A stretch of 64,000 nucleotides of DNA from Oceanococcus sp. HetDA_MAG_MS8 (GTDB taxonomy: Bacteria > Pseudomonadota > Gammaproteobacteria > Nevskiales > Oceanococcaceae): positions 1 through 64,000 of the forward strand of contig JAHCMK010000010.1 of assembly GCA_019192445.1 (NCBI GenBank), written 5' to 3'. Under the pieces are notes generated by a model. The model saw nothing but the letters and a program-made list of their open reading frames with translations. It made no database searches and was not told the DNA's origin. Numbering within the stretch: position 1 is the stretch's first letter; each line of letters begins with the position of its first letter. This document shows, piece after piece, positions 53,421 to 64,000 of the stretch. The translations under genes were made by a program, and so were the position numbers.

Positions 53421-53452
53421 AAAAAACCGGATGGGCGTTTCCACCCATCCGG
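53421..53452 (-). terminator. Intrinsic terminator of the poly-HAMP receptor gene
   Basis: On the minus strand, CCGGATGGG and CCCATCCGG form a perfect 9-bp stem with an eight-base loop, followed at once by TTTTTT. It lies 26 bp past the receptor stop codon. Confidence 0.9.
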
Positions 53453-53478: not shown

Positions 53479-56400
53479 TTAAAAGCTGGACCAGGAGTCG
53501 GGGTTAACGGCTTGCTGCTGAGCACCATGGCCATTACCGCTTTTTTGAGCCTGCTTGCCCTGCATTGCGGCGGGAACATTGGACATGGAACCGGCATCAA
53601 CCAAGGGCTGTGAATCCGGAACCTTGGTGACCGCCACACGTCCTTTGCTATCCCGCTTGAGCTTGAAGGCCGCGACCGAATCGGCCAGCCCCGTAGCCTG
53701 CTCAGCCAGCATCTGAGCCGAGGCCGTGGCTTCTTCCACCAGAGCCGCGTTTTGCTGGGTGACTTCGTCCATGGAGTTAATGGACTGGTTCACCTGCTCG
53801 ATACCGGAGGTCTGCTCTTGGGAAGCTGCAGAGATCTCGCCCATGATGTCGGTCACGCGTTTCACGCTTTGGACAATCTCGTCCATGGTCTTACCGGCTT
53901 TTTCCACGAGTTTGGAACCGGCATCCACCTTCTCTACGGAGTTGCCAATGAGCTGTTTGATCTCTTTGGCAGCGCCCGCGGAGCGTTGGGCCAGGGACCG
54001 CACTTCCGAGGCTACCACCGCAAAGCCGCGACCCTGCTCGCCCGCTCTGGCGGCTTCCACCGCCGCGTTCAGCGCCAAAATGTTGGTCTGGAAGGCAATG
54101 GCATCGATGACGCTGATGATATCGACGATCTTGCGCGAGGACTCGTTGATCTCAGACATGGTCTTGACCACATTGCCCACAACCTCACCACCTTCGCTGG
54201 CCACCCCGGCGGCGCCTTGAGCAAGCTGATCAGCCTGCATGGCGTTTTCGGTGTTCTGACGCACTGTTGCAATCAGCTCTTCCATGGAAGAGGCCGTTTC
54301 TTCTAGCGACTGCGATTGCTGCTCGGTGCGGCGGGATAGATCGGCGTTGCCATCGGCGATTTCTTTGGAGGCGTTGGTGATGGTCTCCGTCGCGGTTTGG
54401 ATCCGCTGCACGATATCGGCCAACTGCTCAGAGCAACTGTTGGTGTCGTCCTTGAGCTTATTGAAGATACCGCCGTAGCTACCATCTACCGACTGGCTCA
54501 AATCACCATCAGCGATCGCGGCTAGTACACCAGCGACTTTGTTAATGACCTCGTTCAACACCGCCACAGTGCTGTTCACGCTGTCTTTGAGGTCGCCCAA
54601 GTCACCGTTGTAGTCGGTTTCGATGCGCTCACTCAGATCCCCGGCCGAGAGTGCCGAAAGCACCCGACCCGTTTCTTGAATCGGCTGAATCACCGAATCC
54701 AGCGTATCGTTCACACCCTGCACAATGGCCCGGAACTTCCCTTGATGCTTGTTCGCATCGGCGCGGGTATCCAGGGCCCCGGCGACGGCTGCCTCGGAGA
54801 GCATGTTGGCATCGTCAATGAGCTTGTTGACAGCATCAATACAGGTATTGAGGTTGTCTTTAATGGTGTTGAAGTCGCCGTTATAGTTATCGGTGATGGG
54901 CTTGGGAATATCCCCCTTGGAGATGCGATCCACATACTCAGCCGCCACGTTCAAGGGGCCAATCACCGCATCCAGGGTGTCGTTCACCCCTTCCACAATC
55001 GCCCGGAAGCTACCCTCATGCTTGTCCGCATCGGCCCGGGTATCCAGGGCCCCCGCCACGGCTGCTTCTGAGAGCAGATTGGCGTCATCAATCATCTTGT
55101 TCACCGCATCAATGGCGCGGTTCAAGTTATTCTTGATGGTGTTGAAGTCACCGTTGTAGTTATCGGTAATCGGCTCGGGGATGTCGCCCTTGGAGATGCG
55201 GTCCACGTATTCAGCAGCCACGTTCAGGGGCCCAATCACCGCATCCAGAGTGTCGTTCACCCCTTCGACAATCGCCCGGAATTTGCCCTGATGCTTGGTA
55301 GCATCAGCCCGGGTATCCAGGGCACCGGCGACAGCTGCTTCTGAGAGCATATTGGCGTCATCAATCATCTTGTTCACTGCATCAATACAGGTATTGAGGT
55401 TGTTCTTGATGTTGTTGAAATCGCCGTTGTATTCGTCGGTGATCGGCTCAGGGATGTCACCATTAGAGATGCGGTCCACGTATTCAGCGGCCACGTTCAA
55501 GGGCCCAATCACCGCATCCAGGGTGTCGTTCACCCCTTCCACAATCGCCCGGAACTTACCTTGGTGTTTGCTGGCATCTGCCCGCGTATCCAGAGCCCCG
55601 GCGACCGCCGCCTCGGAGAGCATATTGGCGTCATCAATCATCTTGTTCACCGCATCGATAGCACGGTTCAAGTTGTTTTTGATGTTGTTGAAATCGCCGT
55701 TGTAGTTGTCGGTAATGGGCTCGGGGATGTCCCCGTTAGAAATCCGATCCACATATTCGGCCGCCACGTTTAAAGGCCCAATCACCGCATCCAGGGTGTC
55801 GTTCACCCCTTCCACAATGGCCCGGAATTTCCCAGAATGCTTATCCGCATCGGCCCGGGTATCCAACGCTCCGGCGACCGCAGCCTCGGAGAGCATGTTG
55901 GCATCATCAATCATCTTGTTGACCGCATCAATACAGGTATTGAGGTTGTCTTTGATGGTGTTGAAGTCGCCGCTGTAGTGGTCGGTAATCGGCTCCGGAA
56001 TATCGCCCTTGGAGATGCGATCCACATATTCGGCGGCCACGTTCAGCGGCCCAATCACCGCATCCAGGGTGTCGTTCACCCCTTCCACAATCGCCCGGAA
56101 TTTGCCTTCGTGTTTGGTCGCATCGGCGCGGGTGTCTAGTTCACCTGCCACCGCCGCCTCGGAGAGTTTATTCGCGTCATCAATCATCTTGTTGACCGCA
56201 TCAATACAGGTATTGAGGTTGTCCTTGATGGTGTTGAAGTCGCCGTTGTACTCATCCGTAATCGGCTCGGGGATATCCCCTTTAGAGATCCGGTCCACGT
56301 ATTCCGCGGCCACATTCAGCGGCCCAATCACCGCATCCAGAGTATCGTTCACCCCTTCCACAATCGCCCGGAACTTGCCTTCGTGTTTATCGGCATCTGC

Positions 56401-58680
56401 CCGCGTATCCAGAGCTCCGGCCACCGCCGCTTCGGAGAGCATATTGGCGTCATCAATCATCTTGTTCACCGCGTCGATGGCGCGGTTCAAGTTGTTCTTG
56501 ATGTTGTTGAAGTCGCCGTTGTAGTTGTCGGTAATGGGCTCAGGGATATCACCCTTGGAAATACGGTCCACATACTCAGCCGCAACGTTCAGCGGCCCAA
56601 TCACCGCATCCAAAGTCCCATTCACACCCTCAACAATGGCCCGGAACTTCCCGGAGTGCTTAGTAGCGTCTGCGCGAGTATCCAGGGCACCTGCAACGGC
56701 TGCCTCGGAGAGCATGTTGGCGTCGTCAATCATCTTGTTGACCGCATCAATACAGGTATTGAGGTTGTCCTTGATGGTGTTGAAGTCGCCGCTGTACTCA
56801 TCGGTGATGGGCTCGGGAATATCGCCCTTGGAAATACGATCCACATAGTCGGCGGCCACATTCAAGGGACCAATCACCGCATCTAGGGTGTTGTTCACCC
56901 CTTCCACAATGGCCCGGAACTTCCCGGAATGCTTGTCGGCATCGGCCCGGGTATCCAACTCACCGGCCACAGCCGCTCTGGAGAGCTTATTGGCGTCGTC
57001 AATCATCTTGTTGACCGCATCAATACAAGTATTGAGGTTGTCTTTGATGGTGTTGAAATCGCCGTTGTATTCGTCGGTGATGGGCTCGGGGATATCCCCT
57101 TTGGAGATCCGGTCCACGTATTCGGCGGCCACGTTCAGCGGCCCAATCACCGCATCCAAGGTGTCGTTCACCCCTTCGACAATGGCCCGGAACTTCCCTT
57201 CATGTTTATCGGCATCGGCGCGGGTATCCAGGGCACCGGCGACTGCAGCCCTGGACAGCATATTGGCGTCATCAATCATCTTGTTCACCGCGTCAATGGC
57301 GCGGTTCAAGTTTGTCTTGATGGTATTGAAGTCGCCGTTGTAGTCATCGGTGATGGGTTCAGGAATATCGCCTTTGGAGATCCGGTCCACATACTCGGCA
57401 GCCACGTTCAAGGGACCGATCACCGCATCCAGGGTGTCGTTCACCCCTTCGACAATGGCCCGGAACTTCCCTTCATGCTTGTCGGCATCAGCGCGAGTAT
57501 CTAGCTCACCGGCAACGGCAGCCCGCGACAACATATTGGCGTCATCAATCATCTTGTTCACCGCGTTAATGGCGCGGTTCAAGTTGGTCTTGATGGTATT
57601 GAAGTCGCCGTTGTAGTCATCGGTGATGGGCTCAGGAATGTCGCCCTTGGAAATCCGATCCACATACTCAGCCGCCACATTCAGCGGGCCAATCACCGCA
57701 TCCAGGGTGTCATTTACACCCTGAACAATGCGCCGGTAATCCCCTTTATGCCGAGAGGGATCGGCACGGGTGGCAAGCTCGCCCGCCACTGCGGCACGCG
57801 ACAACCGCCCGGCGTCGTCGATGAGAAGATTAATGGATTCAATACAGGTATTCAGGTTCTCCTTGATGGTATTGAACTCACCCTTGTATTCATCCGTAAT
57901 GGGCTCTGGAATGTTCCCGCTGGAGATTTTGTCCACGTAATCTGCGGCCACTCGCAGCGGCCGCACCATGGCATCCACAACGGTGTTGACCTCCGCACCC
58001 ACCTTGGCAACAAAGCCATCGCTGTTGTCGATCACACAGCGCGCGTCAAGATCACCATCCCCCACAGCAACAGCCAGATCCGCCAGTGTGCGCAGAGCCT
58101 TAGCCTCGTGGGTGACGTCCATCCATTCAACGACAAAGCCCAGACGATGACCACCGTCATCTTCCACAGGGTTCACGATCAATCTAAAAACGCGATCGCC
58201 CAGGGTTAGCTGAACCACATGTGTGCCTTCCATGTCTCTGAGCACCTTTGCCTGATGCGCAGGGTTCTTATGGAAGTTATCGATGCTACGCCCTTGGACG
58301 TTATCTGTAGAAAACTCGGGAAGGTCCTTTTTAATATCGGCTTCGCAAATACGCAGCATCTCCTCCATCGCAGGATTGAGGAACATGATCTCGCGATCGG
58401 CGTTAGCGAACATGACCTGCTGGTTCAGCGAATCGAGCATATGCTTCATGCCAGACATTTCCCGAACCTTTGCCTCAGCCTCACTGCAGGTCTGCTGCAT
58501 CTCCTCTTGTTTTTGCTGAAGCCCGCTACTTAAGGACTCCAAAGCGGCAAACATCCCCGCGCCCGGGCCTTGCTTGTATCTGGGGTCCACAGACACAGTG
58601 TCGCCGTTCGCTAAGCTGGCGAGATACTGCTCGGCAGCTGCCATACGCTCTTTGACTTGATTCGGAACAAAATTAAACAT
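53479..58680 (-). CDS. Soluble chemoreceptor with PAS domain and about 27 HAMP modules
   Basis: A 1733-residue methyl-accepting chemotaxis protein with no transmembrane helix. Order: N-terminal helix (1-80); PAS domain (about 80-190) with [12 protein letters not shown]; one HAMP-like module (about 195-238); a divergent double-HAMP unit (231-321); eleven near-identical 91-residue double-HAMP units (322-1322); two diverged HAMPs (1323-1425); then the signalling domain with tip [20 protein letters not shown] and [17 protein letters not shown]. The tail ends DSWSSF, fitting the W-x-x-F type of CheR-binding pentapeptide. Each unit begins [20 protein letters not shown] and continues with GDIPEPITD. 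Most chemoreceptors have one HAMP and about 550 residues. A strong terminator follows. Ligand unknown; the PAS may bind a cofactor. Confidence 0.92.
54715..57717 (-). repeat. Eleven tandem 273-bp units coding double HAMP modules
   Basis: The tract is exactly 11 x 273 bp, in frame. Unit n starts at 57717 - 273(n-1). The protein units differ at a few sites only: D/E/N/H before YNGDF, RAI or TCI, GALD or GELD, and the residue after KH. Units 3-5 (56353-57171) and 6-8 (55534-56352) match pairwise, unit 3 with 6, 4 with 7 and 5 with 8. A block of three units was therefore duplicated as one piece. The preceding unit (57718-57990) is the same length but strongly diverged. Confidence 0.93.
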
Positions 58681-60068: not shown

Positions 60069-61115
60069 TCATCGGTTCTTACCCACCCAATCAACGATGG
60101 CTTGTGGAACGTCGTGCAGATTCAAGATGCGTTCCGCGGCGTCTAGTTTTGCCGCCGCACCCGGCATTCCCCAGACCACGCTGGATGCCTCGTCCTGAAT
60201 CATGGTGTGGGCACCGGCCTGCTTCATCCGAAGCATGCCTCTCGCTCCATCCTCGCCCATGCCCGTCAGCAAGACGCCGCAAGCGTTTTTGCCGCAAGCG
60301 GTGACCACAGAATCAAACATCACGTCTACCGAAGGGCGATGACGGTTTACTGGCGGGGCCCCGGAGAGCCGACATAACCAGCGGGCCCCACTCTTCACAA
60401 TTTCTAGGTGTTGGTCTCCCGGCGCGATATACACGTGGCCCGGCAGGATCTGCTGGTTGTCTTCGGCTTGCACTACAGACATAGCACTGGCTCGGTCCAC
60501 GCGCTCGGCAAAGGGCCTGGAGAAACTAGCGGGAATATGCTGGGTCACCACCACTGCGGGGGCATCGGCCGGAAGTGCAGAAATGACTTCACGTAGGGCT
60601 TCCGTCCCGCCAGTTGAGGCCCCCATCGCCACCAATTTATAGGTGGTGCTGTAACCCAGCTGCGGTGCAGCTTGCTTGGAGGCCCCTTTTGCGATGCCCG
60701 GTTTGAGGGGTTGCAGCCTGGCTTTTGCAGCCACCCGAATTTTGGCTTCCAGCTCAGCGGCATGTTCACGCAGGCCTTCGGCCAAACCCAAGGCCGGCTT
60801 CGACACAAAATCGACAGCGCCCAGCTCCAATGCGCGTAGGGTTACATCTGCGCCCTTGACCGTGAGCGATGACACCATCACCACAGGCGTTGGGCGCAGG
60901 CGCATCAGATTTTCAAGAAAGACTAGACCGTCCATCCGCGGCATCTCGACGTCTAAAGTGACGACGTCCGGAGAATGCTGCTTGATCATGTCTCGCGCCA
61001 CATAGGGGTCCTGGGCGGTGCCTACGACCTCGAAATCATCAACGCTGTTCAGAATGTCCTTCAGAACATGTCTGGCCAGAGCCGAGTCATCCACTACCAG
61101 AATCCGTACAGGCAT
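60069..61115 (-). CDS. cheB: Chemotaxis methylesterase/glutamine deamidase CheB
   Basis: The 348-residue protein has a receiver domain ([19 protein letters not shown], phospho-Asp55 in [13 protein letters not shown]) and a C-terminal methylesterase with the triad Ser167 (GASTGG), His193 (TQHIPASFS) and Asp289 ([10 protein letters not shown]). It removes methyl groups from chemoreceptors for adaptation. It lies between two receptor genes; cheA, cheW, cheR and cheD are not in view and may lie beyond the right edge. Confidence 0.95.
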
Positions 61116-61242: not shown

Positions 61243-64000
61243 CTATTGCATGGGTCTGGCTGCGGGAGATGCCCGGTGTTGCTGTGGTGGCTGAACCTTG
61301 TTTGAAACGGAGCTGCTGTGGCTCACTTGGGCACCAGCGGCCGATGCAACCCCAGGCGGGTGCGCAGTGCGAACTCCATGTCCTGCTCCGGGCTGGGGCT
61401 CTAGCCGAAAGTTCTGCACCAGCCCCACCAAACCATGGGCTTCCTGGCGCATGGCTTGGGCGTTATTTGAGGACTCTTCCACCATCGCCGAGTTTTGCTG
61501 AGTCACCTGATCCAGCTCGGAAATGGTCTGATTCACCTGGGCGATTCCCTGACTCTGCTCCTGACTGGCCTGTGCAATCTGGGCAATGATGTCGGTGACC
61601 TGGTTCACACTGCTCACAATGTCGGTCATTGTTTTACCAGCATCGTCGACCAGCTCTGCACCCGTTTTCACTCGAGTGACACTGTCAGAAATCAGTGACG
61701 TGATTTCCTTGGCCGCCTCAGCACTGCGCTGAGCCAAAGACCGCACCTCAGAGGCAACCACAGCGAAGCCGCGACCCTGTTCACCAGCTCGGGCTGCTTC
61801 AACAGCCGCATTCAGAGCCAGGATATTGGTTTGGAAAGCGATCTCATCAATCACTGTGATGATGTCAGCAATTTTTTTACTGGCCTGACTAATCGAAGAC
61901 ATGGTCTCAACCACCTTCTGCACCACGGCCCCACCTTTGCCAGCAACATCCGAAGCACCAATGGCCAACTTGTTGGCGTTCTCCGCACTGCTGGCGTTTT
62001 GGTCCACTGTGCGCGTGAGCTGCTCAATGGAGGATGCCGTTTCTTCGAGATTAGCGGCTTGCTGCTCGGTTCGCCGCGACAGGTCATCGTTGCTTCCCGC
62101 AATTTCGTTGGAGGATTGGCTGATGGTCCCCGCTGCACGCTGAATCTGTTTCACCAGGTCGGTGAGGTTATCGATAGTAGTGTCGGCCTCGCTACGTAGG
62201 CGTGCAAACACGCCGGCGCCCTGAATATTGACGCGCGAGGAGAGATCTCCTTCGGCGAGATTGGCCATGAAACGCTGAATTTCCGAGAAGGCATTTTCAT
62301 TCACGGCTAACAGCTGATTCAGGCCCTCAGCCAGGGCGGCCAGGAAGCCTTCCTTATTGGCTGTATTCAAGCGCTGTGAGTAGTCTCCATCCACAGCGGC
62401 TTGAACGATATTCTTCACCTCGTTCTCAACAGCCAACTCAGCCGTTTGGTCCTGCCATTCCACCACTGTTGCGAGTCGCTCACCAGCATCATCAATCACA
62501 GGACTGGCAATCAACCCAAAGGTGCGACCACCGAGGCGAATGGTGGTGTGATGCGGCTGCTCCAAGTGACGGAGCATGTTCATTTGATGGTCTGGGTTTT
62601 TGTGAAAGGCATCAATGCAGGTGCCAATCAAGCCCTCTACGCGAAAAGAGCTCAGCTCCTTGCCGATATCCGACTCAGCAGTACTAAGCATCTGCCGTAC
62701 GGATGTGTTCAAGTACGTAATGCGACGGTCGTTGTCGGCAATCATCACGTTCGCAGTGACATTATCCAAGGCATTGCGAATACGCAGATTTTCAGCCGCA
62801 ATCTCTCTCTCGCGCGCCTCCCGCGCGGCAATCTCCGCCTGCATTTTAAGCTCGGCGGTGCGATCCCCCCATTCGACAACCGTACCCAAGCGTGTACCCG
62901 TTTCATCAAGGACCGGGCTCGCAATCAGGGCGAAAGTGCGTCCACCCAACTGAATCTCGGTGTGATGGGGCTTCTCCAAAAACTCCAACATGCTGGATTG
63001 GTGTTTGGGGTTCTTGTGGAAGCTGTCTATACAGGTGCCAACCAGCCCATCTACTTTGAACCCCGGAAGGTCTTTGCGAATATCGGACTCAGCCTTGGCC
63101 AGCATGAGTCGCACCGCTTCATTCATGTAGGTGATGCGTCGCTCATTGTCCGCAATCATCACGTTGGCGGTGACGTTGTCTAAGGCACTACGAATGCGCT
63201 GGTTTTTCCCCGCAACCTCTAGCTCGCGCTCGCGCGTTTCACATAAGCCCTCGAGCAAATCGTTGAAACACTTTGCAAGGTCGACGGCCCCGCCTTCTTC
63301 AAGATCAACACTCACACGTTTATCAATATCGCGGCTGGTCGCAATCTCCTGGGCCTGAGCGATGGCATTCTTCATCGCTAATTCCTGCACTACCTGCGCA
63401 GTCACGTCGACTGCATATTTGACCACCTTGATGGGTTTTCCATCGGGATCAAAAATGGGGTTATAGGTCGCCTGAATCCAGATCTGACTCCCATCTTTGC
63501 GAATACGGCAATACCGGCCGGCATGGAATTGTCCACGTCCCAGCATGGCCCAGAACTCTCGATACTCTTTGGATTTAGCTGTGTTTTTGTCGACAAATAA
63601 GCGGTGATGCTGACCGACAATTTCATCCCGCGCATAGCCCACTGCCGCCAGGAAGTTGTCATTGGCGTCAAGAATGTTGCCTACCAAATCAAAGCTAATC
63701 ACGGCTTGGCCGCGGTGAATAGCATCCACTTGGGCTTGATTGTCATGAACCCGCGACAGAGCCGGGGTGTTATCGACGGCGGTCATCAATAACTCATCGG
63801 AAGCCGCGTCGTCGTGTCCGGCTGAAGCCAGGGTGATGGTCCACCACCGCTGCTGTCGGGAGGCGTCAAAGACACGCAGCGCAAATGACTGGGGCTCGCC
63901 AGATTCGCGTAAAGCAGTCACGGATTCTTCGAGTTGGTGGTATTCCGCATCACCAACGTTCAGCAATTGCGCCAGGCTTTTGCCGGCAGCGCGCTTGGCG
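61243..64000 (-). CDS. Multi-PAS soluble chemoreceptor, 5' end outside the window
   Basis: At least 918 residues; the frame stays open to the right edge and upstream codons still read as PAS-like sequence, so the true start is outside. Numbered from 63966: end of one PAS (1-65), an Aer-type PAS with PAC (about 80-190, [13 protein letters not shown]), two tandem PAS copies (258-372 and 396-510, each with FHKNP), two HAMP-like segments (about 515-620), then the signalling domain ([20 protein letters not shown]). No transmembrane helix in the visible part. The C-terminus is Pro/Gln/Ser-rich and lacks a W-x-x-F tether. It probably senses redox or a small ligand through its PAS domains. Confidence 0.9.
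62437..63195 (-). repeat. Tandem duplicated PAS coding segment
   Basis: Segments 62851-63195 and 62437-62781 code two PAS copies at a 414-bp (138-residue) spacing. Both begin IR(S/N)[14 protein letters not shown], share the FHKNP patch, and end VVEW(G/Q)D(R/Q)TAEL. DNA similarity is visible but lower than in the HAMP units, so this duplication is older. Confidence 0.85.

Follow-up and report, generated by a model that had tools for sequence, protein, structure and literature searches.

The window analysed here, a stretch of 64,000 nucleotides (nt) from Oceanococcus sp. HetDA_MAG_MS8 (assembly GCA_019192445.1, contig JAHCMK010000010.1, positions 1 to 64,000 of the forward strand), carries part of a chemosensory gene cluster whose last gene encodes a giant chemoreceptor. 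The open reading frame (ORF) starts with ATG and is unbroken, and its product is built in the order PAS - B - (A-B)x12 - A' - A'' - signalling domain, where A and B denote two kinds of HAMP domain, so that 27 HAMPs follow the PAS domain. The features of the gene and of its neighbours within the window are collected in Table 1.

Table 1. The giant chemoreceptor gene, the parts of its product and the neighbouring features (window coordinates; aa, amino acids)
Feature	Coordinates	Strand	Basis
Giant chemoreceptor gene, 1733 aa	53479..58680	-	ORF list; Pfam HAMP_2, MCPsignal; NCBIfam best model Aer2
N-terminal helical segment, residues 1-73, HAMP-like at most, without transmembrane helix	58462..58680	-	
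Aer2-type PAS, residues 74-192	58105..58461	-	phmmer alignment to 3vol, 4hi4
Post-PAS HAMP, B type, residues 193-240, counterpart of Aer2 HAMP4	57961..58104	-	alignment to 3vol residues past PAS
First 91-aa di-HAMP unit, diverged, residues 241-331	57688..57960	-	aa identity; HAMP_2 match 57829-57996
Eleven near-alike 91-aa di-HAMP units, residues 332-1332	54685..57687	-	91-aa spacing, TRF, identity matrix, dN/dS
Two C-terminal HAMPs, residues 1333-1423, ahead of signalling domain	54412..54684	-	PF00672/PF18947 above cut-off
MCP signalling domain, 36H length, residues 1424-1690	53611..54411	-	PF00015 3.1e-56; Tsr 1qu7 alignment
C-terminal xWxxF pentapeptide SWSSF, CheR-tether type	53482..53496	-	read from sequence
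Terminator-like stem-loop with T run directly 3' of giant gene	53428..53447	-	scan; weak
mcpA-like receptor of F7 cluster, 413 aa	58802..60043	-	PF00015 1.3e-29; syntenic beside CheB in relatives
CheB methylesterase	60069..61115	-	Pfam, NCBIfam
Second PAS/HAMP/MCP receptor, 966 aa, start outside window	61243..64000	-	

Residues 241-1332 form twelve consecutive head-to-tail units of exactly 91 aa, each composed of two HAMPs, an A half, which has a proline close to the beginning of AS1, and a B half of divergent sequence; these 24 HAMPs, the B-type HAMP behind the PAS and the two C-terminal ones make up the 27. The same periodicity was recovered independently of the protein reading by Tandem Repeats Finder (TRF; period 273 bp, 11.1 copies, score 3541, at 54688-57711). 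The first unit shares 67-73% aa identity with the others, and units 2-12 average 90.8% identity among themselves at the aa level and 82.6% at the nt level. The Pfam model HAMP_2 (PF18947) matches 14 stretches with a total E-value of 0, PF00672 matches too, and a custom A/B profile recovers 26 of the 27 HAMPs; the post-PAS HAMP is weak alone in Pfam. Matches of Pfam REF, ArdA, FIVAR and TLN1-like models to the repeats were judged to be chance matches inflated by repetition. A Kyte-Doolittle (KD) scan found no transmembrane helix in the receptor, the top 19-residue stretch (KD 1.68) being the receptor tip itself. A HAMP ahead of the PAS, in residues 1-73, was considered and could not be established, as the Algiphilus relative has a gap and no HAMP match there; the MFN start is conserved in that relative. 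The first-pass annotation of this DNA had described a soluble PAS chemoreceptor of 1733 residues at this position, with no membrane helix, about 27 HAMP modules, one PAS and eleven 91-residue units between diverged flanking ones, all of which agrees with the ORF list, the KD scan, the domain matches, the unit spacing and the identity matrix.

The PAS domain aligns over its full length with the heme PAS of Pseudomonas aeruginosa Aer2 (phmmer, 3e-33 to 3vol and 5e-26 to 4hi4). Trp186 aligns with Aer2 W283, which we take to be the distal O2 residue, and would be its counterpart in the giant receptor. His137 aligns with H234, the heme histidine of Aer2 (PMC13401364). These alignments point to a PAS of the heme type and a putative gas binder. 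The best NCBIfam model for the whole protein is the aerotaxis transducer Aer2 with a repeat-inflated 1013.9 bits, short of the 1200-bit cut-off of the Vibrio-type Aer2 equivalog NF041847, and the receptor is on this basis classed as Aer2-like, outside the strict Vibrio type. Over 226 residues (query 1451-1676, chain 1-226) its signalling tip can be aligned with that of Escherichia coli Tsr (1qu7) without a single gap, which places it in the 36H length class. Where the giant receptor has SWSSF, its giant relatives carry WAEF or WSEF.

The genomic setting agrees with these assignments. In the upstream direction on the minus strand, the giant receptor gene is followed by those for the mcpA-like receptor, CheB, a receptor, CheD, CheR, a further receptor, CheW, CheA, CheY and a STAS protein, and this order, STAS-cheY-cheA-cheW-mcp-cheR-cheD-mcp-cheB-mcpA-like-giant, matches the F7 stage-1 order of PMC7184735, with the giant as the last gene, occupying the place of the usual last two. 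The cluster adjoins an F6/flagellar cluster (CheW, MotAB, CheA, CheZ, CheY, FliA), and the E. coli-type CheA model gives its CheA 663 bits, against 382 for the neighbouring F6 CheA. The giant receptor is thus assigned, by homology and gene order, to an F7, 36H-class chemosensory system, and its position at the end of an F7 stage-1 cluster supports reading it as a soluble receptor of the Aer2-like kind whose relay has expanded. As to the surrounding sequence, the mcpA-like receptor may have a membrane hairpin at its N-terminus (KD 2.12), terminator-like sites overall are no more numerous than in shuffled sequence, a promoter scan was uninformative (one site where 3.9 are expected), and a search of Rfam gave no match.

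The array is old. Among units 2-12 the synonymous p-distance is 0.54 (about 1.0 after Jukes-Cantor correction, JC), the nonsynonymous distance (dN) is 0.067 and the ratio of nonsynonymous to synonymous divergence (dN/dS) is about 0.07; the difference at fourfold-degenerate sites is 28% or more for any two units and 44% on average, with 67% expected at saturation, and 69 of the 91 positions are invariant across the eleven near-alike units. Synonymous divergence of this size together with so low a dN/dS indicates that the array is ancient and specific to its lineage and that the likeness of its units has been kept by purifying selection; the low dN/dS implies that selection acts on each unit. 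In a tree of units, the twelve from the window form one clade (Shimodaira-Hasegawa-like approximate likelihood ratio test, SH-aLRT, 99) beside the Algiphilus units, so either the array expanded in this lineage in the distant past or its homogenisation ceased long ago. The first-pass annotation had seen in the near-identity of the units a sign of recent expansion or ongoing gene conversion. Near-identity holds for the protein (a mean of about 91% aa in the eleven units) and does not hold for the DNA (about 83%), and neither recent expansion nor ongoing conversion agrees with the synonymous divergence in the genome of the window (dS about 1, at least 28% at fourfold sites), on which recent expansion was rejected.

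The same data bear on whether the repeat number was inflated during assembly, a concern raised by the fragmentation of the genome into 20 contigs and by a related genome, G020, whose contigs break precisely inside such arrays. The longest exact repeat in the array is 66 bp, short enough to be spanned by short reads, all units are distinguishable, the frame is intact and comparable arrays occur in G908, a genome in a single contig. An assembly artefact, which the first-pass annotation had named as the observation that would undo its reading, is therefore very improbable, and it was rejected on the length of the exact repeats and the arrays in G908.

Relatives were sought among 85 genomes of the order of the window's genome, in a class sample of 369 genomes and across the phylum; Algiphilus is placed in Nevskiales by the NCBI taxonomy. 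Within the order, long arrays of the 91-aa unit were found in G000, G061 (an Algiphilus contig, L001/L065), G020 and G069, and shorter ones in G036. The class sample added a few more genomes, at least one strong match occurs in 18 of the 81 genomes of the family of G331, and phylum-wide sampling yielded no additional genome at E<=1e-25. Such arrays are patchy among the other Gammaproteobacteria and reach about 15-16 units (2235 aa). Giants with this unit in G069, G020, G061/Algiphilus, G908, G863 and G314 have between 5 and about 16 units behind heads that are PAS domains, transmembrane four-helix segments or hairpins, and the unit length is constant in every copy in the window and in nearly every relative. 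The comparison of unit number among related genomes that the first-pass annotation had called for thus revealed variation in array length, seen between species. Its remark that poly-HAMP arrays are known in smaller form, such as the five HAMPs of Aer2, calls for correction, as other genomes hold arrays that are equal or longer: the F7 cluster of G069 (L059, C1:97500-112500) contains two giants of 1562 and 2235 aa, adjoined by CheW genes, and the larger has at least 32 HAMPs, so the protein in the window is not the longest.

Some of these arrays have been homogenised recently. G908 (L082, C1:2992000-3011000) encodes, close to each other, two transmembrane receptors (1454 and 1722 aa) that share an array of 8-9 units organised as a two-unit higher-order repeat with a 546-bp period, in which units at even spacing are about 92-100% identical at the nt level, mostly 97-100% between alternate units. 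Such a pattern is the mark of recent expansion, and the arrays are freshly homogenised. Signs of recent homogenisation were seen only outside the window's genome, in G908 and in G020, where units are common to paralogues. These observations, the patchy distribution and the absence of the giant from a genome of the same genus (G001) would be expected if the array were a by-product of recombination between units without a role of its own. Such neutral growth is nevertheless improbable for the window, where no pair of units is recent, the protein is kept at about 91% identity with a dN/dS of about 0.07, as befits an old, selected array, and frame and stop damage is absent from the units.

Array, head and tip do not always travel together. 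Tips of the 36H class occur in the window, in G069 and in one gene of G020, and tips of the 34H class, with seven residues fewer per arm, occur in the other gene of G020, in G314 and in G331; the Algiphilus tip resembles the 34H class up to the end of the contig. G020 (L039, L040 and L038 on contigs C1, C13 and C7) has two transmembrane-PAS-PAS heads that are 89% identical and two tails of different class (36H and 34H), joined via the same array, so that the same sensor would serve two signalling classes; these joins are ambiguous, since the contigs break within the arrays and C13 and C7 share a 758-bp exact overlap. With that ambiguity, the di-HAMP array appears to behave as an exchangeable relay cassette. 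A broader proposal can be offered tentatively, namely that a relay cassette shared among Gammaproteobacteria lets unrelated heads and 34H or 36H tips recombine, while its length sets the height of an extra-tall kind of chemosensory array, with the PAS at 80 nm or more from the CheA plate. As a separate observation, an F7 receptor of G001 (L043, frame from 6548) combines an Aer2-type PAS with five other PAS domains that are nearly alike and stand in tandem; here it is the sensor, not the relay, that is expanded.

The fold of the repeat was predicted with AlphaFold2 (AF2) for one B-A HAMP pair, using 26 aligned sequences from the window and its relatives, with a predicted local distance difference test score (pLDDT) of 88.4. 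The model has helices at 2-16, 31-61 and 76-94, of 15, 31 and 19 residues, and its top three Foldseek matches are the Aer2 poly-HAMP crystal structures 4i3m, 4i44 and 3lnr, with template modelling (TM) scores of 0.78-0.80 (0.80 to 3lnr), a probability of 1.00 and 2.0-2.1 A, at E-values of 0.015-0.21, weak ones for a model this short; further matches include Af1503 HAMPs with TM up to 0.83 by target length. The structural check proposed by the first-pass annotation thus gives a HAMP pair with a real poly-HAMP fold. Since a fused helix of about 31 residues spans two half HAMPs, each HAMP accounts for about 2.3 nm, and 27 of them would add about 62 nm (60-65 nm). In cryo-electron tomography (cryo-ET) of ordinary F7 arrays, layer L1 lies at 17.5 nm and L2, the layer of the PAS, at 24.5 nm (PMC7184735), from which the PAS of the giant, on a dimeric HAMP rod, is predicted to lie near 80-87 nm above the CheA/CheW plate.

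The giant is probably a soluble Aer2-like gas receptor of an F7 system in which a combined stalk and relay has grown to 27 HAMPs. The relay between PAS and tip would have been enlarged through tandem duplication of the 91-aa di-HAMP unit, and in the dimer the HAMP four-helix bundles would be stacked without interruption, a fused AS2-AS1 helix of about 31 residues running through each junction. This stiff rod of about 60-65 nm would raise the PAS to about 80-87 nm, compared with about 24.5 nm in ordinary Aer2, and gas binding at the PAS would be relayed via alternating conformers of adjacent HAMPs. Growth in steps of two HAMPs might allow the length to change without inverting the signal; growth by an even number of HAMPs is equally explained by recombination of whole units and is no evidence of design.

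Several points weigh against this interpretation. Heme binding rests on two aligned residues, the HAMP pair was modelled as a monomer, and an AF2 model of three units, built from the array's own repeats, is unconfident (pLDDT 34.5) and was used for helix boundaries only; its helices are 30-33 residues long and recur with the periodicity of the pair model. Parity with Aer2 is not simple, with 27 HAMPs past the PAS against 2. Moreover, G001 has the same F7 cluster through the mcpA-like gene without the giant, which is therefore dispensable for the F7 system.

Constancy of the unit at strictly 91 aa, the great uniformity of the units and the differences in length among relatives without a corresponding change of head or tip would also fit a purely mechanical spacer or array-building stalk, whose HAMPs no longer conduct and whose tip is set by methylation and neighbouring receptors. 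We consider this rather unlikely, because the A/B alternation is kept, the connector and core are constrained (69 of 91 positions) beyond the need of a mere rod, and the PAS retains its key residues. Aer2 HAMPs adopt conformers of opposite output (PMC3570549), and cooperative chains in theory could turn every HAMP pair into an extra two-state step that sharpens, slows or weakens the PAS signal. A filter or attenuator of this kind gains no support from the sequence, in which the units are uniform and not graded, and we hold it to be quite improbable. A stalk that is also a relay remains the preferred interpretation.

Both HAMP arrays and Aer2-like receptors are already known, rarely at such length. 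The P. aeruginosa Aer2 (McpB; F7/Che2; 3VOL, 4HI4, 3LNR) is likewise soluble, with a heme-type PAS in which the His and Trp positions are shared, HAMPs past the PAS, a 36H tip, an xWxxF pentapeptide and an F7 gene cluster; the giant differs in having 27 HAMPs past the PAS instead of 2, in lacking a clear triple HAMP ahead of it and in being the last cluster gene, beside two more PAS receptors. Alternating poly-HAMP arrays (Dunin-Horkawicz and Lupas 2010; Airola 2010) resemble it in their concatenated HAMPs and in a divergent type with a single conserved glycine ahead of AS2; according to Dunin-Horkawicz and Lupas (2010) they reportedly reach about 31 HAMPs, so length alone would not be new. 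Fungal group III hybrid histidine kinases (Nik1/Bos1) contain repeats of about 92 aa made of two HAMP-like halves. They have five to six HAMP repeats (PMC3418262), and differ from the giant in their kinase output, fewer repeats and other unit sequence. A bacterial hybrid histidine kinase of 1858 aa with 92-aa di-HAMP repeats, like the fungal group III (Nik1), was observed in G064 (L061, C40). Myxococcus FrzCD (PMC12077210) is also a cytoplasmic receptor with stacked HAMPs, although it has two HAMPs and a DNA-binding head without PAS. A literature search on very long HAMP arrays found nothing further.

The interest of these receptors lies mainly in a natural series of lengths (about 8, 9, 12 and 15-16 units of constant size), which is open to experiment. 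Most work on the reach of HAMP signals has so far dealt with two to five HAMPs, and the presence of one unit behind differing heads and tips makes the reach of a HAMP chain, and the effect of its length, directly testable. The predicted height difference of about 60 nm should show plainly by cryo-ET.

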